Below the pieces are notes generated by a model. It had not been told where the DNA came from. It saw only the letters and a list, made by a program, of their open reading frames with translations, and did no database searches. Made by a program: the position numbers and the translations under genes. Positions 32,881 to 44,453 of a stretch of 64,000 nt of DNA are shown one piece after another (the first letter of the stretch is position 1; every line of letters begins with the position of its first letter). The DNA comes from Capnocytophaga canis (lineage in GTDB: Bacteria; Bacteroidota; Bacteroidia; Flavobacteriales; Flavobacteriaceae): assembly GCF_000827555.1 (NCBI RefSeq), contig NZ_CDOI01000133.1, positions 1-64,000 of the forward strand. Reading direction: 5' to 3'.

Positions 32881-33369
32881 TTATCTTTCCTGAATATTTT
32901 CTATTTGCAATCCGACTTCGGTAATACCATTGAGCTGTTCCAAACCGTCTGTTTCTCCTATTTTTCGCATGGCTTGTTCTACCTTTATAGTATATGTTCC
33001 ATTGGCTGAAAACACAAAGTTTTCTTTATACCACAACTTATTTTCCTTTACAGATGAATATCCATAACCTAACCATTTCCCTTCTGGGGTTGCCATTTCG
33101 TATTCCAAAGTGTCTATAATGAGCCTTCTGTCAGGCAATTCCATGTGAGTAATAAGAAATAAATTACTAAACTCATACTTTTCATTATTTCTCAGCATGA
33201 TGAATATGTTTTTTTTAGCAATAGAATCGGAGTGTTGAAATTGAAACGACACAGGCGATGCCTTTTGCCAACCTTCTCCATCTGAAAGTGAAACATATTC
33301 GCTATATTCGATGTTTGACTGACAGCTACTCCACATCAGGACGGCTAAAAATAGGGTTAAAAATCTCAT
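32881..33369 (-). CDS. gldH: Gliding motility lipoprotein GldH
   Basis: The 162-residue protein begins with a lipoprotein signal with lipobox MWSSC. The body matches GldH: YSEYVSLSDGEGW near the front, the central FLITHMELPDRRLIIDTLEYEMATPEGKWLG, and the final IKVEQAMRK with GITEVGLQIE. GldH is an outer-membrane-associated lipoprotein needed for gliding in flavobacteria. Its ATG overlaps the ricT stop by one base (TAATG), the arrangement often seen in this group, with PBP1A next. Together with the SprB-like protein it points to a gliding, T9SS-equipped organism. Confidence 0.92.
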   Translation of the reverse strand: MRFLTLFLAVLMWSSCQSNIEYSEYVSLSDGEGWQKASPVSFQFQHSDSIAKKNIFIMLRNNEKYEFSNLFLITHMELPDRRLIIDTLEYEMATPEGKWLGYGYSSVKENKLWYKENFVFSANGTYTIKVEQAMRKIGETDGLEQLNGITEVGLQIENIQER

Positions 33370-34826
33370 TATTTATTATTATCGGTGCTATTCTTATTAA
33401 AATGGTTCGATTTTCGTTTTGCATTTGGATTTTTTTCCTTCAAATGCTTTGGATTTTTTGAATTTTTCTGATTTGCGATATTATTCTTCTGTTTGTCCTT
33501 CTCGTTTTCAATAGGAATATTGTGTTTTTGAGATTGGGGCTGTGTCTTTTTAATTTTTACCTGTTGATTTGGTTTTCGCTGCTCATTTTTATGTTGAATA
33601 TTTGCATCTACCTGTTTTTCAGGAATCTCTACTTTACTTTCTGATTTTCCTGTTTCATTACCATTTTGGTTCCCTGCCTTGTTACTCTTGGAACGCTTGT
33701 CATTCTTCTTTTTCTTGCGTTTGGGTTTGTCGAATCGAGTGAGACTATCCTCCGTATTTTCCTTGATCATTGTCATTCCAATTCCAGAACCTATTCCATC
33801 TGCTTCGGCTGTGATGGCATAATCTTCTAATACGACATCTTTGTCACCTGCACCATTCTTGGCAATAATTTCTTTGACACTTTCTACCGACAATTTATGC
33901 CAATTTATAGGGTCTTCGTCATAAGAATACCACATCAAACGTTTGAAAATGTCTATTTTTTGACAACTTGCTTTCCCTTTTTCCGTATGTAATTTAGTTT
34001 CTGTACGAGGGAAATCCTGCAGAGCATCCACGTAGGAATCCAGCTCAAAATTGAGACAGCATTTCAACTTTCCACACTGTCCTGCTAATTTCTGTGGATT
34101 CAGTGAAAGTTGCTGATAACGAGCCGCTGAAGTGGTTACAGTTCTAAAATCAGTGAGCCATGTTGAGCAACACAGTTCACGCCCACATGAACCGATCCCT
34201 CCTAATCGAGCCGCTTCCTGACGGAAACCTATTTGTCGCATTTCAATGCGTACCGAAAAGGCTCGTGCCATATCCTTAATCAATTGACGGAAATCGACTC
34301 GACCTTCAGCTGTATAATAAAACGTAGCCTTAGAACCATCTCCTTGGAATTCTACATCTGAAATTTTCATTTCCAATCCTAAAGCAATCGCTAATTCTCG
34401 CGAGCGTTTTTGCACTTCAATCTCTTTATCCCGAGATTCTTGCCAAATATCAATATCTCGCTGATTTGCCTTTCGGTAGACTTTAGGAATTCCTTCTCCA
34501 TTCCAATCGATTTTTCGCTTTTTCATTTGCAAACGAACCAATTCACCTGTGAGGGTAACCACTCCTACGTCATGTCCTGAACTGGCTTCCGTAGCAACTA
34601 CATCACCTATTTGTAACGATAATTTCTCTGTATTTTTAAAGTATTCCTTACGGCTATTCTTAAAGCGGACTTCTACGCAGTCAAAAAAATCTTGTCCCCC
34701 TGGTAAGCGCACATTTGATAGCCAATCAAAGACAGCTAATTTTCCGCTATTGCAACCTCCAGAACTACATCCTCCACTGCATCCATCACCTTTTTTATTT
34801 TTTGTTGTGCAACTATTGCAACTCAT
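33369..34826 (-). CDS. ricT: RicT/YaaT-like PSP1 domain protein
   Basis: The 485-residue cytoplasmic protein has a Cys/Gly-rich start (residues 2-28, nine Cys). The PSP1 core (about 40-330) includes GDVVATEASSGHDVGVV, the RVDFRQLIKDMARAF block and the cysteine-containing LGGIGSCGRELCCSTWL and CGKLKCCLNFE motifs. In the Bacillus YaaT complex such cysteines bind an Fe-S cluster, with roles in RNA turnover; the role here is by homology. From about residue 375 it is a low-complexity Lys/Asn/Gln tail that is longer than in the family average and probably disordered. It is the first gene of the ricT-gldH-PBP1A run. Confidence 0.88.
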   Translation of the reverse strand: MSCNSCTTKNKKGDGCSGGCSSGGCNSGKLAVFDWLSNVRLPGGQDFFDCVEVRFKNSRKEYFKNTEKLSLQIGDVVATEASSGHDVGVVTLTGELVRLQMKKRKIDWNGEGIPKVYRKANQRDIDIWQESRDKEIEVQKRSRELAIALGLEMKISDVEFQGDGSKATFYYTAEGRVDFRQLIKDMARAFSVRIEMRQIGFRQEAARLGGIGSCGRELCCSTWLTDFRTVTTSAARYQQLSLNPQKLAGQCGKLKCCLNFELDSYVDALQDFPRTETKLHTEKGKASCQKIDIFKRLMWYSYDEDPINWHKLSVESVKEIIAKNGAGDKDVVLEDYAITAEADGIGSGIGMTMIKENTEDSLTRFDKPKRKKKKNDKRSKSNKAGNQNGNETGKSESKVEIPEKQVDANIQHKNEQRKPNQQVKIKKTQPQSQKHNIPIENEKDKQKNNIANQKNSKNPKHLKEKNPNAKRKSNHFNKNSTDNNK

Positions 34827-35250
34827 TCTTTGTTATTTATTATATTGAAAAACAAGGTTTTGAATAGATATTGTTAGAAAATAACCTTGTTCGATTAGTA
34901 TTTGTCTTTTAGTCATTTGCTATTTTATACGAATAGCTTCAATTTGCAAAAATACATTTTTTATTTTTACGTACTATAAAATATAACAGATTTTTTTCTA
35001 ACAGAATTTCTTTCCTAACATGAAGAAGACAAAATAAATACGGTTTAATTGATAATTACATCAACTTGTGAATTGTTAACAAAAAATAAAGTAAAGATTA
35101 TAGGTCTTCTGTTTGAAATATAAAACTCATAATATCAATAATTTATATCTTATAATTATGAGATAAACTATTCAGATTAGATTGTTTTTTTATTTTACAG
35201 AGAATATAACCAAGAAAAGAAATATCATTGCTGTAATTAAATAAGCATGT

Positions 35251-35364
35251 CACAAGGCTGTCGAAAAGGTTTGTTTTGGGCAAAATATTAAAAATAAAAT
35301 GTTTATTTTCAAGGTGTTAAGTTTTGTAAAATTACTAAAACTTGACTTTTCGGACAGCCTCGTG
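35251..35364. repeat. Long inverted repeat of the GGCTGTCCGAAAAG family
   Basis: Arms at 35251-35268 and 35346-35364 (CAC-AGGCTGTC-GAAAAG and its complement) enclose about 75 bases. The loop holds a second stem, AAGTTTTGTAA...TAAAACTT. It is not next to a gene end, so it is not an obvious terminator here, and looks more like a dispersed element. Confidence 0.5.
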
Positions 35365-35524
35365 TTCTTAAACATAAGTTAAATGACCAGGTGCTATAAT
35401 TTATAGGAGGTTATATACTTAATATTTGAATATTACTGTTGTATTTTTTCGAAGTATAATCAAATGAGGCTCTTTTATTTAGATTTTTATTTAAGAATAT
35501 ATTCACAAAAAAATAGAACTTTTT

Positions 35525-35555
35525 TTGTGTAAAAAGAAAAAAAGGTTTACCTTTA
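35525..35555 (+). promoter_or_regulatory. Promoter of susC
   Basis: TTG (35525-35527), about 20 bases, then TACCTTTA (35548-35555), close to the Bacteroidetes consensus, 31 bases before the ATG. Confidence 0.45.
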
Positions 35556-35586
35556 CACCTCAATTTAATAATTAATCAAACAGCTT

Positions 35587-38500
35587 ATGAAATTTAAAAT
35601 TTTAACATTGTTCACGTTTGTGTTCAGTTGGTGTTTAACACTTTCTGCACAGACGGTGTCAGTAAAAGGAACTGTTACTGACGAGAGTAAAGTGCCACTA
35701 CCAGGCGTAAGTGTTTTGATCAAAAACACTACTCGTGGAGTAGCTACTGATTTTGATGGTAAGTACGAAATCAAAGCAAATCAAGGAGATGTACTTGTCT
35801 TCAGTTACTTAGGTTTTGTAACACAAGAAAAAACTGTAGGGGGGGGTAGTTCGCTGACAATCAACGTATTACTTGCCGAAGAAGCTCAACAATTAGAAGA
35901 TGTTGTAGTTGTTGGGTATGGAACTCAGAAAAAAGAAAACTTAACTGGTGCTATAGCTACAGTTGATGCGAAAGTACTAGAAAGTCGCCCATTAACTACC
36001 ATTGGACAAGGGTTACAAGGGTTGGTGCCCAACTTAAATATTGGTGTAGGTAATGGTCGTCCTGGGTCTGGCGCTAGCTTTAATATTCGAGGTTTTACCT
36101 CTATTAATGGAGGAAGTCCATTAGTTCTTGTTGATGGTGTGCAAATGGATCCTAATCAAATTAACCCTAATGATGTAGAGAATGTAACCATACTTAAAGA
36201 TGCTGCTTCTGCGGCTATTTACGGAGGGCGTGCAGCATTTGGGGTTATACTTATCACTACTAAACAAGGTAAAAAAGCAACTCCTCTTCAAGTGAATATA
36301 TCTACAAATTATTCACTTACACGACCTACTCGTTTACCTAAATTGGTCAATTCATTAGAATATTTAACAATGTATTTATTGGCCGATGAAACTGGAAGTA
36401 TTTCAGGAGGTTCTAGAGGTAGTCAAGGATTTGGACAAGAGGATATTGATAGAGCAAAAAAATATATTGCAGACCCACGTCCTGAAAATGCGGTTTACAT
36501 CGACCCTACCAACCCAAGAAGATATCGCTACGTAGGTAATACAGATTGGATTGAAGAGATGTATCCTAGTTGGGCTCCACAGTCACAACATAACATTTCT
36601 CTTTCAGGAGGTTCTGAGAAAACTACTTATATTGCTTCTGCCGGTATGTTCGAGCAAGAAGGTCTTTTCAAAGTTTCTAAACAAAAATTCAATCGTTACA
36701 ACTTGAATCTGGGTTTGACTACTGATGTTACTAAATGGCTTACTGTTGGAGTAAAGACAAGTTTGAATCGTAAGCAGAACGATCAACCTTCAAACGGGCG
36801 TAACGGTGTAGAAACAGAGCGTTTTGCAAGTGATTTAAAACCTTTGATGCCTGTATATCACCCTGATGGGAATTTTTCTGGACAAGGAAATTATACGAAC
36901 CCTTTTGCTATGATTGCCACAGGAGGAAGAGATAAATATACCTCCGATGATATATGGGTAACTGGAAACTTTGTGTTAAAACCTATTAAAAACGTAAAAG
37001 TGGTAGGAGACTATACTTGGAACTCTTACAGAAATAATAGCAAAACGAACGTAAAACGTTTTAAAGAATATGGAGCTCCTACCGATGGTGTTAGCATTTT
37101 TGACCCTACAAAAGCTACCGATTTAGGTTTCTTCCCTCATACCAATACTTCCCGAGTAGATGAAAATAGTTACCATGACCTTTATAAGGCGGCTAATATT
37201 TATGCTCAATATGAAAATACCTTTGCTGAAAAACATTATTTCAAAGCAATGGTGGGATATAGCCAGGAAGAAAAACACAATGAATCTTTTTGGGCGAGTG
37301 TAAAAGATCTTATTAATCAAGATTATCCATATTTGAAGTTAAATAACGATGAAAAACCTCGTGTAGGTAGCGGAATTTCTGATTGGGCATTGATAGGTTC
37401 CTTCTTCCGTTTAAATTATATATTTGCTGAGAAATATTTATTAGAGATTAATGGACGTTATGATGGTTCTTCTAAATTCAGCAAAAATAACAGATATGTG
37501 TTCAGCCCTTCTGCTTCATTAGGATGGCGTATTTCTAAAGAAGGGTTTTTTGAACCTCTAACTCAAGTGGTAAGTGACCTGAAACTTCGTGTTTCCTATG
37601 GTGATTTACCCAACCAATACGTAGGAGGAAATTATCCATACTTAGCAACAATGGGCTACGGAGCACAAACAGGTTATTTGTTTGGTAGTGCAGGACTTCC
37701 TTACGTAAACGCTCCTGGACTAGTAAGTGATAACTTTACTTGGGAAACCGTAGAAACGCGAAATATTGGAGTAGATTACGGCTTCTTTGATAATCGTTTA
37801 TCAGGTTCGTTTGACTATTACATCCGAAACACTAAAGGAATGTTGGTAAACGGAGTTCCTCTGCCAAAGGTGCTGGGAACAGGTGCACCACAACGAAATG
37901 CTGCCGATTTGGAAACCAAAGGATTTGAATTTTCTATTGGATGGAAAGATCAAGTTTCCGAAGATTTCGGTTATAACATAAGTTTTAATTTGGCTGATAG
38001 TAGAGCATTCATTACCAAATTTGACTTGAACCCAACAGGAAATATAGGGCAATACTATGTTGGTAGAGAAATTGGTGAAATATGGGGATATACTTCCAAT
38101 GGCTTGTATCAAACCAATGAAGATGCTGCGAAAATTGATAACAAAAGATTAGCAGGATATAAATGGTTAGCAGGTGACGTAAAATTTGAAGATTTGAATG
38201 GTGATAATAAAATCGACTGGGGAGATTATACCCTTGAAAAACCTGGTGATTTGAGCATTATAGGGAACAACCGTTCACGTTATACTTTTGGTTTAAATAT
38301 GGGAGCTAATTATAAAGGATTCGATTTTTCATTATTTTTACAAGGTACTGCAAAAAGAGATTATGCTTTGGGAGGTACTTACTTTTGGGGGTTCACCAAT
38401 CAATGGGCTGTACCTACTACCGAACAATTGGATTATTGGACACCTGAAAACCCAAATGCTTATTTTCCAAGACAGCGTTTCGGAGGAGGAAACTTCCAAA

Positions 38501-38736
38501 CCTCTACCAGATATTTGCAAGATGCCTCTTATGTACGCGTAAAACAAATCACATTGGGTTATTCCTTGCCTAAGGACGTAATGCAATCCATTGGAATGAA
38601 CAATTTAAGGGTTTATGTAACAGGAGAAAACGTGATGGAGTTTACTAAACTTATTAAATCATACGACCCTGAATTGCTTAATCAGATTTACCCGCTTAAC
38701 AGAGTGTTTACTTTTGGGGTACAAGCACGATTCTAA
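35587..38736 (+). CDS. susC: SusC/RagA family TonB-dependent outer-membrane transporter
   Basis: The 1049-residue TonB-linked barrel imports glycans or peptides caught by its SusD partner. It has a signal peptide (1-21) and a carboxypeptidase-like regulatory domain (about 24-105: VKGTVTDESKVPLPGVSVLIKNTTRGVATDFDG). The TonB-box-like segment and plug follow (VVVVGYGTQKKENLTGAIATV, DGVQMDPNQINPNDVENVTILKDAASAAIYGGRA), then a barrel ending FTFGVQARF. An eight-G run at 35839-35846 falls inside codons 85-88; in this low-GC genome it is a candidate slippage site. No regulator or enzyme gene is adjacent, so the substrate is unknown. susD starts 22 bases later. Confidence 0.95.
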   Translation: MKFKILTLFTFVFSWCLTLSAQTVSVKGTVTDESKVPLPGVSVLIKNTTRGVATDFDGKYEIKANQGDVLVFSYLGFVTQEKTVGGGSSLTINVLLAEEAQQLEDVVVVGYGTQKKENLTGAIATVDAKVLESRPLTTIGQGLQGLVPNLNIGVGNGRPGSGASFNIRGFTSINGGSPLVLVDGVQMDPNQINPNDVENVTILKDAASAAIYGGRAAFGVILITTKQGKKATPLQVNISTNYSLTRPTRLPKLVNSLEYLTMYLLADETGSISGGSRGSQGFGQEDIDRAKKYIADPRPENAVYIDPTNPRRYRYVGNTDWIEEMYPSWAPQSQHNISLSGGSEKTTYIASAGMFEQEGLFKVSKQKFNRYNLNLGLTTDVTKWLTVGVKTSLNRKQNDQPSNGRNGVETERFASDLKPLMPVYHPDGNFSGQGNYTNPFAMIATGGRDKYTSDDIWVTGNFVLKPIKNVKVVGDYTWNSYRNNSKTNVKRFKEYGAPTDGVSIFDPTKATDLGFFPHTNTSRVDENSYHDLYKAANIYAQYENTFAEKHYFKAMVGYSQEEKHNESFWASVKDLINQDYPYLKLNNDEKPRVGSGISDWALIGSFFRLNYIFAEKYLLEINGRYDGSSKFSKNNRYVFSPSASLGWRISKEGFFEPLTQVVSDLKLRVSYGDLPNQYVGGNYPYLATMGYGAQTGYLFGSAGLPYVNAPGLVSDNFTWETVETRNIGVDYGFFDNRLSGSFDYYIRNTKGMLVNGVPLPKVLGTGAPQRNAADLETKGFEFSIGWKDQVSEDFGYNISFNLADSRAFITKFDLNPTGNIGQYYVGREIGEIWGYTSNGLYQTNEDAAKIDNKRLAGYKWLAGDVKFEDLNGDNKIDWGDYTLEKPGDLSIIGNNRSRYTFGLNMGANYKGFDFSLFLQGTAKRDYALGGTYFWGFTNQWAVPTTEQLDYWTPENPNAYFPRQRFGGGNFQTSTRYLQDASYVRVKQITLGYSLPKDVMQSIGMNNLRVYVTGENVMEFTKLIKSYDPELLNQIYPLNRVFTFGVQARF

Positions 38737-38757
38737 TAATTTTAAAAGAACAAAACA

Positions 38758-40440
38758 ATGAAGAATAAAATTAAACATATAGCAATAGGATTATCGGCTG
38801 TGCTGACAGTTGTTTCTTGTAAAAACGACGATTTTTTGGATAAATATCCTCCTGATGCGTTTACCGAACCTTCTTATTTTAAAACAGAACAAGAGTTGAG
38901 TTTTTTTGCTAACCGATTCTACGGAAGTTTGCCTTTGAGCATCTTACAACATAGAGATACACAATCGGATAATATGGTACCTAATAGTCCTGATAACTTC
39001 TTGTTTGGAACATATACAGTTCCTTCAGAAGGAGGAGGTTGGGATACGGGAGCTTGGAATGGTATACGAAACTGTAATTTCTTTTTAGAAAACTATCAAA
39101 AAGTTCCTGGAAATACCAAAGAAAAATATGCTGCGGAGGTTCGTTTTTTCAGAGCGTTGTACTATTGGGAAAAAGTTGTTCGTTTTGGAGATGTTCCATT
39201 AATATTGAAAAAGGTAGGAGATGCTTCACCTGAAATATATGGACCCAGAGAGCCACATAAAAAAGTAATGGATGAAGTACTGAAAGACCTTGATTTTGCT
39301 ATTCAGCATCTGCCTGAAAAAGCAAGTGCCGAGGCAGGAAGATTGCATAAAGACGCTGCCCTCGCTCTCAAATCAAGAATTGCACTTTGGGAAGGGACTT
39401 TCCGTAAGTACCACAATTTGGGCGATGAACGTGTATTTTTGGAGGCAGCCGTTGACGCTAGTGAAAAGTTGATGGCAAAAGGGTATGAGATCTATTCTAC
39501 AGGAAAACCAAATCAGGATTACCGAGATTTATTTATAAAGGATAATTTGGCAGGTAACAAGGAGGCTATTTTCCATAGACATTATTTACGTTCTGTTGAA
39601 ACGGGAAGACATGAATACAGCCGTTATGCTAAAGGTTCTAACAATGGATGTAGTAAGGATTTTATGGAATATTATCTTTTCAAAGATGGAAAACCAATTA
39701 GTACTACGTCTTACGCATACGATGACAGCACTCCTAGTAAAGAAGCAGAAAACAGAGACCCTCGGTATGCACAAACGATAGCTACTCCTGGTTTTGTAAA
39801 AACAAGTTCTAATCCACCTTTGATTGTAAATCTTCCAGAAATAGGTACTCCAGTAACTACCACAGGATATTGGTTTATAAAAGGAATGTCAAGCGATCCA
39901 AAACAAGAAGAGGCGTACAGTAGCGATACAGATATGTTTATCTTCCGATATGCAGAGGTACTGTTAAACTATGCAGAGGCTAAATATGAATTAGGAACAT
40001 TGTCTCAAGCAGATTTAGACAGAACAATCAACAAGATAAGAGACAGAGTTGCAATGCCCCATTTAACGATGGATGCAGTAGCAGATGCTAACGCTAGTGA
40101 TTATGGGTATGACGTAGCTCCCATTCTTTACGAAATACGTAGAGAACGTCGTGTAGAACTTGTGGGAGAAGGATTCCGCTTTAATGATATTTTGCGTTGG
40201 AAGGCAGGAAAATTATTTAATAATCCGAAAACTATAAGAGGAATGAAATTGACAGATGAATTAAAAGCAGAATATGCTACAGATGCTGTTAAAAAATTAC
40301 CTGTAGATAGTGATAAATATTTGATTGTTTATCCTGCATATCCTAACGGACGTACGTGGAATGATAAAATGTATCTATATCCAATACCAACAGATGAGTT
40401 AAAATTGGTTGGGTATAAACAAAATCCTGGATGGGACTAA
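38758..40440 (+). CDS. susD: SusD/RagB family substrate-binding lipoprotein
   Basis: The 560-residue outer-membrane lipoprotein lids the SusC pore. It has a lipoprotein signal with lipobox VVSC (Cys near 21), the early block DDFLDKYPPDAFTEPSYF, the EVRFFRALYYWEKVVRFGDVPLI helix pair and the closing IRRERRVELVGEGFRFNDILRWK that defines the family. The usual TPR-like helices lie between. It follows susC closely and ends at the stem-loop 40511-40546, so the pair forms a two-gene operon. The length is within the normal range; the ligand cannot be told. Confidence 0.95.
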   Translation: MKNKIKHIAIGLSAVLTVVSCKNDDFLDKYPPDAFTEPSYFKTEQELSFFANRFYGSLPLSILQHRDTQSDNMVPNSPDNFLFGTYTVPSEGGGWDTGAWNGIRNCNFFLENYQKVPGNTKEKYAAEVRFFRALYYWEKVVRFGDVPLILKKVGDASPEIYGPREPHKKVMDEVLKDLDFAIQHLPEKASAEAGRLHKDAALALKSRIALWEGTFRKYHNLGDERVFLEAAVDASEKLMAKGYEIYSTGKPNQDYRDLFIKDNLAGNKEAIFHRHYLRSVETGRHEYSRYAKGSNNGCSKDFMEYYLFKDGKPISTTSYAYDDSTPSKEAENRDPRYAQTIATPGFVKTSSNPPLIVNLPEIGTPVTTTGYWFIKGMSSDPKQEEAYSSDTDMFIFRYAEVLLNYAEAKYELGTLSQADLDRTINKIRDRVAMPHLTMDAVADANASDYGYDVAPILYEIRRERRVELVGEGFRFNDILRWKAGKLFNNPKTIRGMKLTDELKAEYATDAVKKLPVDSDKYLIVYPAYPNGRTWNDKMYLYPIPTDELKLVGYKQNPGWD

Positions 40441-40798
40441 TTTTTTCATGAATATACACAAGATAGTGCATGGAAAAGTTTAGACAAAATTAAAACAAAC
40501 TATTATCGAAAATGAGGCTGACCTTTTTGGACAGCCTCATTTTTTTGTTAGTAATAAATATTTATCAAGGAATATACAGCTAATGTCAAATAAATCGAAT
40601 TTACGTATTTTTTGTAGCAAAAATGATTAGCTAACCTTAAAACTCGTAAGACCTTTCCTTATTTTTATTATTACAGAAAATATAATGTCTTTTTAAAACG
40701 AAAATTACTTTCAAAATTTGCTTTTATCTGAACAGAGCTTCGTGTTTTTTTTCAAATGTCGAAAAAAAATAGTACATTCGCAGAAAATATTTAAAATT
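40441..40798. other. Intergenic region between susD and ilvE
   Basis: Holds the susD terminator (40511-40546) and, just before ilvE, a possible -7 box TACATTCG (40773-40780). Nothing else was recognised. Confidence 0.5.
40511..40546 (+). terminator. Terminator of the susCD operon
   Basis: AATGAGGCTG-A-CC and GG-A-CAGCCTCATT arms surround TTTTT and are followed by a T run. It is a member of the GGCTGTCC repeat family. Confidence 0.7.
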
Positions 40799-41866
40799 AT
40801 GGATAACCTTGCATTTAATTTACGTATTCAGAAAGCGAAAGAAAGTCGTATTAATGAAGTAGATTTTTCGAATCTACAATTCGGAAAAATTTTTTCAGAT
40901 CATATGTTCGTATGCCACTACACCGATGGAATGTGGCAACAACCTGAAATTAAGCCATATTCAGCTATAACTTTAGAACCTTCAGCAAGTGTTTTTCACT
41001 ACGGACAGGCTATTTTTGAAGGAATGAAAGCTTATAAAGATGATGCTGGAGACATCTTTTTGTTTCGTCCGCAAGAGAATTACAAACGAATGAATAAATC
41101 AGCGGTTCGGTTAGCAATTCCAGAGTTTCCTGAAAGTTGGTTTGACCAAGGGTTGAGAGCTTTGTTGAAAATTGATAGTGAGTGGATTCAAAAAGGGTTT
41201 GGAAATTCACTATACATCCGCCCCTTTATGATTTCTACCACATCGGGGATAAAAGCCTCTCCTGCAACGGATTACATGTTTATTATTATCACTTCGCCAG
41301 TTCAGGCCTATCATTCAGGCGACGTGAAAGTGAAAATTGCAGACTACTATAGCCGTGCTGCTAATGGAGGTTTTGGTGCTGCCAAGGCTGCTGGAAATTA
41401 CGCAGGTCAGTTCTATCCAACACAATTAGCGATTGAAGAAGGCTACCAGCAAGTTATATGGACAGATGATGCTACACATGAATTTTTAGAAGAAGCAGGA
41501 ATGATGAACCTATTTTTTAGAATCAATGATGTATTGATGACCTGCCCTGCAAGCGAACGTATTTTGGACGGTGTTACTCGTAAAAGCGTACTTACAATTG
41601 CTGAAAAAATGGGAATCAAAACCGAGGTACGCCCAGTAAGAGTCAAAGAGTTGATTGAAGCTGCTGAAAATGGAACTCTTCAAGAAATTTTTGGTAGTGG
41701 AACGGCAGCCGTTATAAGTCCAATTTCTGGATTTGGTTATAAAGACAAAAAATATACGTTTATACCTCCAGCTGATTTATACGCTTCAAAAATCAAAGAA
41801 GCCATTTTGAATATCCAATATAACAAAGTTGAAGACCCTTTTGGTTGGAGAGTTAAAGTCGATTAA
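40799..41866 (+). CDS. ilvE: Branched-chain amino acid aminotransferase
   Basis: A PLP enzyme (class IV fold) that interconverts valine, leucine and isoleucine with their 2-oxo acids. I take the ATG at 40799 (MDNLAFNLRIQ), giving 355 residues. The open frame reaches a TTG at 40718, but that part lies across the likely promoter (TACATTCG, 40773-40780). Motifs: VFHYGQAIFEGMKAYK, FLFRPQENYKRMNKSA, the PLP Lys in AAKAAGNYAGQ, QVIWTDDATHEFLEEAGMMNLFF, and GSGTAAVISPI at the end. The length fits the long type with E. coli IlvE-unlike extra segments common in Bacteroidetes. Confidence 0.95.
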   Translation: MDNLAFNLRIQKAKESRINEVDFSNLQFGKIFSDHMFVCHYTDGMWQQPEIKPYSAITLEPSASVFHYGQAIFEGMKAYKDDAGDIFLFRPQENYKRMNKSAVRLAIPEFPESWFDQGLRALLKIDSEWIQKGFGNSLYIRPFMISTTSGIKASPATDYMFIIITSPVQAYHSGDVKVKIADYYSRAANGGFGAAKAAGNYAGQFYPTQLAIEEGYQQVIWTDDATHEFLEEAGMMNLFFRINDVLMTCPASERILDGVTRKSVLTIAEKMGIKTEVRPVRVKELIEAAENGTLQEIFGSGTAAVISPISGFGYKDKKYTFIPPADLYASKIKEAILNIQYNKVEDPFGWRVKVD

Positions 41867-41897
41867 TAACGGAATATCTCTACGATTTGAAATGAAA

Positions 41898-41998
41898 AGA
41901 GGCTGTCAAAAAAACTAATTTCGAAGATTTAAAAGACATTTATAATCAAGATTTTATAAATATACTTTTGTTTAAAAACATTTTTTTTGACAGCTTCT
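41898..41998. terminator. Long inverted repeat, convergent terminator of ilvE and pheT
   Basis: AGAGGCTGTCAAAAAAA (41898-41914) pairs with TTTTTTTTGACAGCTTCT (41981-41998) around about 66 AT-rich bases. It lies exactly between two convergent stops. Confidence 0.6.
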
Positions 41999-42023
41999 AT
42001 TTTTTTAGAACATTAATGAATTA

Positions 42024-44453
42024 TTATGAGCGAACAGATGCCTGTAATTTTTCCTTGAAACGTTCTTGTAAATTGTGCATTACCTTTTCTATCTGTTTAT
42101 CCGTGAGTGTTTTAAAATCATCTTGTAGGGTGAAACTAATTGCATAGCTTTTCTTGCCTGTAGGAAGTTTCTCGCCTTGGTATACATCAAACAGGCCTAC
42201 ATTTTTTAAGATGGATTTTTCGGTTTCAAATGCTATTCTATGAATGTCACTGAACGAAACAGCTTCATCAAGGAGTAATGCTAAGTCACGCCTTACTTCT
42301 GGGAATTTAGCAATTTCTTTGAATGTATTTTTCTGATTTTTAATGCTCTCAAGAACTATATCCCAGCAGATGTCGGCAAAAAAGATTTCTTGCTTGATAC
42401 CAAATTTTTTCAATATTTTACCTTTAACAACGCCTATACTTCCAAGCAATTTTCCATTGATAATCCATTCAAATCCTTCTCGAATAAAGAGATTATTATC
42501 TAGAGGTTGCGTATGAATATTTTTTAGTTGCAATCGTTCAAAAACAGATTCAACAATTCCTTTCAAAAAGAAGAAATCTGTTTTCTGAGGAATAATGTTC
42601 CAATTTTCAGGAAGTTGATTACCTGTGATATAAACCATTAGGTGTTTATTTTCTACAAAATTATCACCTATTTTGTGATAACTTTTCCCAAATTCGAATA
42701 GTTTCAAATCGGAACGCTTTCGGTTAATGTTGTATTCAATAATCTCCAATCCAGAGGGTAGGAGATTTTTACGCATAAAATTTAAATCACTACTCAAAGG
42801 ATTCAGAATTTTTACCACTTTTGTAAGATCTTCTTCAAAATCAGTAATTGTTTTTTCAGATACTAAGCTATTGGTCATTATCTCAGAAAACCCTTGTCCG
42901 GCAAGTTGGGAAGCTATTACATTTTGAACGTTGTGATCGTCAAATTTTGAAGCGTGTGACATTGAGGCATTAATTTTTTCTGAAAAATTAATGTTATTGT
43001 ATCCATAGACACGCAAAATTTCCTCAATAACATCCGCTTCACGTTGTACATCTACACGATATGAAGGTACAACTAATCCTAAACCGCGCTCTGTAACTGA
43101 GTTGATTTTGATATCCAATGAATGTAATATACTTTTAATGGTGTCATTTGGAATGATTTGTCCAATAACTTTATGAACGCGTTCGAATGCTAAAAATACC
43201 TGAAAATCATCATGTTTTTTGGGGTATAAGTCGATAATATCCGATGAAATCTGTCCTCCTGCGACATTCTCAATTAAGATAGCAGCGTACATTAAAGCGT
43301 GTTTTACTTCGCTAATGTCTATTCCTCGTTCAAAGCGGAAAGAAGCATCGGAGTTGATAGCATGGCGTTTGGCGCTTTTTCGAACCGAAACAGGGTTAAA
43401 ATAGGCACTTTCTAAAAAGATGTTGCGAGTGCTGCTGGTTACTCCAGAGTTGAGTCCACCCAAAACTCCTGCAATGCACAAAGGTTTTTCAGCATCACAA
43501 ATCACCAGATCTTCCGCATCTAAGATTCGTTCAACACCATCTAAGGTTTTGAATTTTGTACCAGCTTCTGCCGTTTTTACGATAATTTTTTTCCCTACGA
43601 TGTGATCTGCATCGAAAGCGTGTAACGGTTGTCCCAGTCCGTGGAGTACATAGTTGGTAATATCAACGATGTTGTTTTTAGGAGTAAGTCCGATGGCTTT
43701 CAGTTTGTTTTGCAACCACATGGGGGATTCGGCTACTTTTACGTTGCTGATAGTCAATCCCGTATATCGAGGTGCGAGTTCTTTGTTTTGAACATCTACA
43801 TCAATTTTTGATAGTCGATTGTCAATGTGAAATTTTGTTACCGAAGGGGTTATCAACTCCAAAGAAGTACCTCTTTGTATCAATCCTGCACGTAAGTCAC
43901 GCGCAACACCGTAGTGACTCATGGCGTCTGCACGATTTGGAGTTAATCCGATTTCAAAGACTTCATCGTTTTCTACTTCAAAAATTTCACTGCATAAGGT
44001 TCCAGGTTCGTACTTATCATCCAAAACCATGATTCCTTCGTGTCCTTCACCTAGTCCGAGTTCATCTTCGGCACAAATCATCCCGAAACTTTCTTCACCG
44101 CGTATTTTTCCTTTTTTGATTTCCCATAGGTTTCCGTCCTTATCAAAAAGTTTTGTTCCAATGGTCGCAACAGGTACCTTTTGCCCTTTAGCAACGTTTG
44201 GAGCTCCGCACACAATTTGCACGATGTTCCCCTGACCTATGTCTACTTTGGTAACTTTCAATCGGTCAGCGTTGGGATGTTGTTGGCACTCCAATACGTG
44301 TCCGACAACAACTCCTTTCAGTCCTCCTTTGATGCTTTCGAAAGATTCAATTCCTTCAACTTCAAGTCCTAAGTCGGTAAGTAAGGCTCCAGTTTGTTCT
44401 GAAGGTAAATCAATTTTGATGAATTTTTTAATCCAGTTGTACGAAATTTTCAT
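42024..44453 (-). CDS. pheT: Phenylalanyl-tRNA synthetase beta subunit
   Basis: The 809-residue beta chain of the (alpha-beta)2 enzyme that charges tRNA-Phe. Domains in order: N-terminal helix pair; EMAP-like tRNA-binding OB fold (about 42-155, GHVLECQQHPNADRLKVTKVD); B3/B4 editing domain (about 215-390, with GLGQPLHAFDADHI); B5 DNA-binding-like domain (about 400-470); the catalytic-like core; and the C-terminal FDX-ACB anticodon-binding domain (about 715-809, FPEVRRDLALLLDEAVSFSDI). The length is typical. The alpha subunit gene is not in this window. A -7-like box (TATTTTTG, complement of 44493-44500) precedes the ATG. Confidence 0.97.
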   Translation of the reverse strand: MKISYNWIKKFIKIDLPSEQTGALLTDLGLEVEGIESFESIKGGLKGVVVGHVLECQQHPNADRLKVTKVDIGQGNIVQIVCGAPNVAKGQKVPVATIGTKLFDKDGNLWEIKKGKIRGEESFGMICAEDELGLGEGHEGIMVLDDKYEPGTLCSEIFEVENDEVFEIGLTPNRADAMSHYGVARDLRAGLIQRGTSLELITPSVTKFHIDNRLSKIDVDVQNKELAPRYTGLTISNVKVAESPMWLQNKLKAIGLTPKNNIVDITNYVLHGLGQPLHAFDADHIVGKKIIVKTAEAGTKFKTLDGVERILDAEDLVICDAEKPLCIAGVLGGLNSGVTSSTRNIFLESAYFNPVSVRKSAKRHAINSDASFRFERGIDISEVKHALMYAAILIENVAGGQISSDIIDLYPKKHDDFQVFLAFERVHKVIGQIIPNDTIKSILHSLDIKINSVTERGLGLVVPSYRVDVQREADVIEEILRVYGYNNINFSEKINASMSHASKFDDHNVQNVIASQLAGQGFSEIMTNSLVSEKTITDFEEDLTKVVKILNPLSSDLNFMRKNLLPSGLEIIEYNINRKRSDLKLFEFGKSYHKIGDNFVENKHLMVYITGNQLPENWNIIPQKTDFFFLKGIVESVFERLQLKNIHTQPLDNNLFIREGFEWIINGKLLGSIGVVKGKILKKFGIKQEIFFADICWDIVLESIKNQKNTFKEIAKFPEVRRDLALLLDEAVSFSDIHRIAFETEKSILKNVGLFDVYQGEKLPTGKKSYAISFTLQDDFKTLTDKQIEKVMHNLQERFKEKLQASVRS

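Follow-up and report, generated by a model that had tools for sequence, protein, structure and literature searches.

Campylobacter jejuni carries several poly-G contingency genes at surface loci, most of which encode surface-modifying enzymes. In the Bacteroidota, SusC transporters determine which host or dietary glycans are taken up, and their location at the cell surface makes them likely to be recognized by antibodies and phages. Excerpts from published work describe two systems that come closest to the locus reported here. In Neisseria meningitidis, TonB-dependent haemoglobin uptake by hmbR/hpuA is subject to poly-G phase variation (PMC3352162), and in Bacteroides fragilis a DNA invertase is reported to cause phase variation of SusC/SusD (Nakayama-Imaohji 2009, as cited in PMC12632263 and PMC11868660).

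Here, we analyzed a tract of eight G (G8) inside a susC gene in a 64-kb stretch of Capnocytophaga DNA, hereafter the window. As far as the excerpts describe hmbR/hpuA, the likeness lies in an in-frame poly-G tract in outer-membrane uptake genes, with ON and OFF states that here, too, would be set by tract length. However, Neisseria has two such haem systems whereas Capnocytophaga has many SusC paralogues sharing one codon site, and switching of hmbR/hpuA has been measured whereas we infer it for susC, a different gene family in a different phylum. The invertase system of B. fragilis, as excerpted, likewise involves random ON/OFF switching of SusC/SusD transporters in Bacteroidota, but it depends on inversion by a recombinase and not on a homopolymer inside the coding frame. 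With C. jejuni, the locus shares the presence of several putative poly-G switches at surface loci of one genome; there, mostly surface-modifying enzymes are concerned, whereas here they are transporters, in the presence of MutS and MutL. Among the matches listed in a search of open-licence papers by title and start of abstract, we found no report of poly-G switching of SusC or of phase variation in Capnocytophaga, and the main text of a paper on C. canimorsus PULs does not contain the words 'phase', 'frameshift' or 'homopolymer'.

The G8 tract and its susC gene

The tract consists of exactly eight G, as an earlier sequence-only reading had reported. That reading placed it in codons 85-88; it does start in codon 85 but covers codons 85 and 86 and two bases of codon 87 (GGG GGG GGT). 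The claim that the run stands out holds in part. No other G or C run in the window, which has a GC content of 36.1%, exceeds six bases, but the length of the tract is within chance expectation. In 60 simulations of a first-order Markov model of the 64-kb window, 0.3 runs of G≥8 or C≥8 were expected per 64 kb, so that the length of G8 alone is weak evidence. The window's genome (G000; 2,571,400 bases in 214 contigs) contains six G≥8 runs compared to about 12 at the rate of the window model. Due to this lack of a genome-wide excess and the 0.3 runs expected per window, we rejected significance from length alone. The weight of the evidence comes instead from the position of the tract, which is common to many paralogues.

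The gene encodes a SusC/RagA-type TonB-dependent transporter: the CarbopepD_reg_2, plug and TonB_dep_Rec_b-barrel (residues 433-1007) domains all score above the Pfam cut-offs, and susD adjoins the gene (Table 1). Solved SusC and RagA structures are relatives of the protein, and its closest named relative in a protein search is a C. cynodegmi protein (87%). The sequence-only reading had further stated that the run precedes the plug and barrel, that its present length is in frame and that a one-base slip would end the transporter early. All three statements are borne out. The tract lies inside CarbopepD_reg_2, the 1049-aa ORF is intact, and, as read from the sequence, gain of one base brings TAG into frame immediately 3' of the tract while loss of one base brings in TGA three codons on. 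As expected for a phase-variable gene, the homopolymer is located within the reading frame and a shift truncates the protein early.

In an AlphaFold2 model of SusC residues 1-238, based on a 41-row alignment (mean pLDDT 74.8, and 85 at residues 81-90), residues 85-87 form a predicted beta-turn between strands 80-83 and 89-91. Three glycines occupy this turn in the in-frame copies, and four in one of them. The tract site is thus predicted to be a tolerant turn.

By eye, the upstream neighbors, on the opposite strand, look like ricT and gldH, and the downstream ones like ilvE and pheT; with these presumed identities the susCD genes of the window seem to be a stand-alone pair. Inspected in the same way, the long ORFs of positions 33000-43000 included no recombinase-like product. 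The possible promoter upstream of susC was likened to what we take to be the Bacteroidota -33/-7 consensus, from which it deviates at the last base of the -7 element.

Table 1. Features of the susC locus in the window.
Feature	Position	Strand	Evidence or remark
N-terminal module common to the window's susC and a second G000 susC (contig C133)	35441..35909	+	85% over 471 bases
Possible promoter: TTTG, 19 bases, TACCTTTA	35525..35555	+	Likeness to Bacteroidota -33/-7 pattern; weak
susC (SusC/RagA-type TonB-dependent transporter, 1049 aa), currently in frame	35587..38736	+	ORF, Pfam, solved SusC/RagA relatives
CarbopepD_reg_2, residues 26-108, contains the G8 tract in a predicted turn	35662..35910	+	Pfam and predicted structure
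G8 tract, candidate phase-variation switch	35839..35846	+	33 further susC genes have a tract at these codons
Plug domain, residues 116-220, 3' of the G8 tract	35932..36246	+	Pfam
susD, begins 21 bp past the end of susC	38758..40440	+	ORF and Pfam

Recurrence of the tract at one susC codon site

Four of the six G≥8 runs in the window's genome, including that of the window, are located at the same susC codons; the other two are at contig ends. A survey of 20 Capnocytophaga genomes yielded 73 G≥8 runs in ten genomes and 115 in the other ten. Adding one run at a contig start gave 189 places, and merging by 25-base flanks, which joined one non-susC pair (G016), left 188 distinct tracts. Searching with residues 1-238 of the window's SusC, tblastn found matches at 41 of them, which we assigned by eye, using alignments and translations, to the homologous site (34 tracts), to a position just past the signal peptide (3) or to other positions (4). 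The site tracts are distributed over ten genomes: G017 has eight, G016 five, G000 and G005 four each, G003, G009 and G019 three each, G014 two, and G008 and G013 one each. The site lacks a tract in the other ten genomes and in a C. cynodegmi-like relative with a body 80% similar to that of the window's susC. Most site tracts are G9 (18) or G8 (14), with one G10 and one G12, and the letters TAA or TAG directly follow 33 of the 34. Considering only tracts of G≥9, the susC site holds 20 of the 76 found in the 20 genomes.

The codons used at the site are unusual for these genes. As a control, we used 30 susC loci found by protein similarity (93,021 aligned bases); two more loci have tracts outside the aligned part, one at the second site (L103) and one in a frame-broken copy (L105). 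The control set contains 14 sense-strand G≥8 runs, all within codons 78-87; C≥8 runs are absent from its 93,021 aligned bases. GGG makes up 452 of the 2920 glycine codons. Where at least three glycines follow each other, a G run was present in 14/14 cases at the site and in 0/20 elsewhere (Fisher p 7e-10, relatedness ignored). The run is maintained as DNA, beyond the need for glycine alone. Neither protein nor codon usage explains the codon choice at the site. Placement and retention of a tract beyond protein and codon constraint, seen here at one site in 34 genes, are further properties expected of phase-variable genes.

Copies with a broken frame are found among the tract-bearing genes. Across paralogues and species, 29/34 site tracts are in frame and 5/34 are out of frame, the latter all in draft assemblies. 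At these five tracts, and at one of the three just past the signal peptide, the gene falls into two offset frames, of which the upstream one starts with ATG and the downstream one stays open for 925-1052 codons; in the susC on contig C143 of G000, the out-of-frame tract is followed by an open frame of 932 codons. Of the 51 susC matches from the protein search, two have a late start that coincides with the tract, and the rest are free of internal stops. All six broken copies belong to the drafts G000, G016 and G017, whereas in the one- or two-contig genomes G009, G013 and G019 all seven site tracts are in frame. This confinement to drafts means that some tract lengths may be miscalled.

Outside Capnocytophaga, the tract appears to be absent. 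A motif of the tract plus the following codons matched in 0/394 Flavobacteriaceae genomes of other genera (2/397 matches, both Capnocytophaga). This motif recovers 19 of the 34 known site tracts, so that absence outside the genus is likely but cases could be missed. In 76 readable loci out of 80 from a protein search, a G run longer than four occurred at the site in 0/68 loci of other genera and 0/8 Capnocytophaga loci. Viral contigs contained no strain variants.

MutS and MutL are present in all 20 Capnocytophaga genomes, with MutL in two pieces in G011, and loss of mismatch repair is therefore unsupported as a driver. Due to the presence of both proteins, the rate of switching may be moderate, and an 8-base tract may switch slowly. 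The two-piece MutL (G011:C1:406139-407619) could raise tract mutation in G011, a genome with no tract at the susC site.

Other tracts were noted during the survey. A second susC tract site lies right after the signal peptide, in 'IYGGG' or 'NYGGG' (L103, L119 and L347; twice on G017:C113 and once on G003:C9), and one of these three tracts is out of frame. The two remaining G≥8 runs of the window's genome are a G9 (L085, G000:C174:1-9) and a G10 (L083, G000:C24:1-10) in which contigs end; one of these ends interrupts a very long HYR-domain ORF, and at the other an ORF encoding Reg_prop and histidine-kinase domains comes to its end. Both are possibly additional variable tracts at which the assembly broke. 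In G009:C1, a G15 and a G12 (L202 and L291, about 1093750 and 1457950) are located a few bases 5' of TACTTTTG, which resembles what we take to be the Bacteroidota -7 box, and some tracts may thus act in promoters. A G21, a G13 and a G9 (L302, L286 and L366) from three genomes occupy the same place in an apparent single family that has no Pfam match and represent another candidate switch. In G019:C1, G9 and G10 runs coincide in position ('GYPDGGG') in two related ORFs (L297 and L298, about 2581020 and 2593264), and a Pfam scan of one of the two gave no match. The remaining Capnocytophaga tracts are mixed. Many non-susC tracts of G8-G9 fall into conserved glycine motifs of housekeeping genes, revealing a real background of such runs.

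Exchange of the N-terminal module

To compare N-terminal regions with the bodies of the genes, we used 57 susC genes, of which 34 have a tract and many were chosen because of it. In five pairs within genomes, about 240 N-terminal bases are 84-98% identical whereas 600 bases of the body are 51-58% identical. The window's susC and its partner on C133 form one such case of a common module, which begins 146 bases ahead of the ATG, reaches about base 323 of the gene and is followed by differing bodies; the tract site itself differs between the two (GGG GGG GGT versus GGA GCA GGT). Conversely, the genes whose bodies are closest to that of the window's susC (80-82%) show just 64% identity in the module. 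A cross-species pair, L087 (G019) and L102 (G005), is 93% identical over 1.9 kb of upstream DNA and module, and over the stretch that begins about 390 bases ahead of the tract and ends about 90 bases past it, a single codon next to the tract is all that distinguishes the two. Despite this near-identical N-terminal DNA, their bodies are 54% identical.

On a tree of susC bodies, presence of the tract requires 15 changes, 12 of which are forced by well-supported branches. Shuffling the tract labels gave a mean of 18.1 changes, with 43/500 shuffles as low as 15, which shows that the tract is weakly tied to the susC body. Together, these sequence comparisons indicate that the tract-bearing N-terminal module is exchanged between susC genes.

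A possible extension, which we hold to be evenly balanced between right and wrong, is that the module forms a portable switch cassette, composed of near-upstream DNA, the signal peptide and the first SusC domain with poly-G in the tolerant turn. Recombination would move such a cassette among SusC bodies of the same and of different species, making any recipient transporter randomly ON or OFF and giving each cell its own set of nutrient transporters.

Proposed phase variation and alternative explanations

The best reading, to which we assign a probability of roughly 83%, is ON/OFF phase variation of translation by slipped-strand mispairing at many susC loci. In the mechanism we infer, mispairing during replication would add or remove a base in the G run. 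Any change not divisible by three would shift the frame and end SusC near residue 90, before the plug and barrel, leaving the cell without the transporter and probably reducing susD through polarity. A later slip would restore the frame, and a change of three bases would do nothing more than add or remove a glycine in the surface turn. With the same switch at the same codons in many SusC paralogues, up to eight per genome, each cell would express a random subset of transporters. The proposed benefit is escape from antibodies or phages, or nutrient bet-hedging.

The G run might instead merely encode a conserved Gly-Gly-Gly turn and never switch. This is very unlikely, even though many of the proteins have a glycine-rich turn here and a G8 is not rare by chance at 0.3 per 64 kb, because none of the 20 other Gly-Gly-Gly stretches in the same genes is a G≥8 run. 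Moreover, other susC genes of G000 encode the turn without a run: one of them has Gly-Gly-Gly at the site as GGA GGT GGC, and relatives have GGA GCA GGT or GGA GGA AGC. Frame-broken copies would also be unexpected for a simple glycine turn. Such copies could in turn represent homopolymer errors of sequencing or assembly, with tracts that are stable in life. The restriction of six out of six to drafts, the seven in-frame site tracts of G009, G013 and G019 and the two G000 contigs that terminate in G runs speak for this explanation, but errors explain neither why 34 tracts from 10 genomes share one codon site nor the codon choice, and we regard it as less probable still.

Two further explanations rank lowest, and alike. 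If the run were mainly a recombination landmark for the exchange of N-terminal modules, and no switch, the exchanged modules and the end of similarity soon past the tract would fit; however, similarity continues for 60-130 bases beyond the tract, up to the start of the plug, and the window/C133 pair and a pair in G008 have a common module although one partner lacks the tract. Alternatively, the run may act in expression, with a single DNA length yielding a mixture of products by programmed frameshifting or by slippage during transcription. Both transcription and translation are known to slip at homopolymers, but the bases preceding the tract vary freely among the susC genes, unlike in a fixed slippery site.

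The phase-variation reading agrees with the proposal of a switch in the sequence-only reading, which is strengthened by 34 tracts of G8-G12 at the homologous site in 10/20 genomes, by the five that are out of frame and by the codon choice. That proposal was probably right about the susC of the window, and the phenomenon extends beyond this one gene.

If phase variation of susC is true, the genome of a Capnocytophaga, an oral bacterium, would be a snapshot of a shuffled transporter repertoire, and some SusC 'pseudogene' calls would be OFF states. The growth phenotype of one colony may then not apply to the next. For the SusC family, slippage in the coding frame would constitute a second switching mechanism beside DNA inversion.
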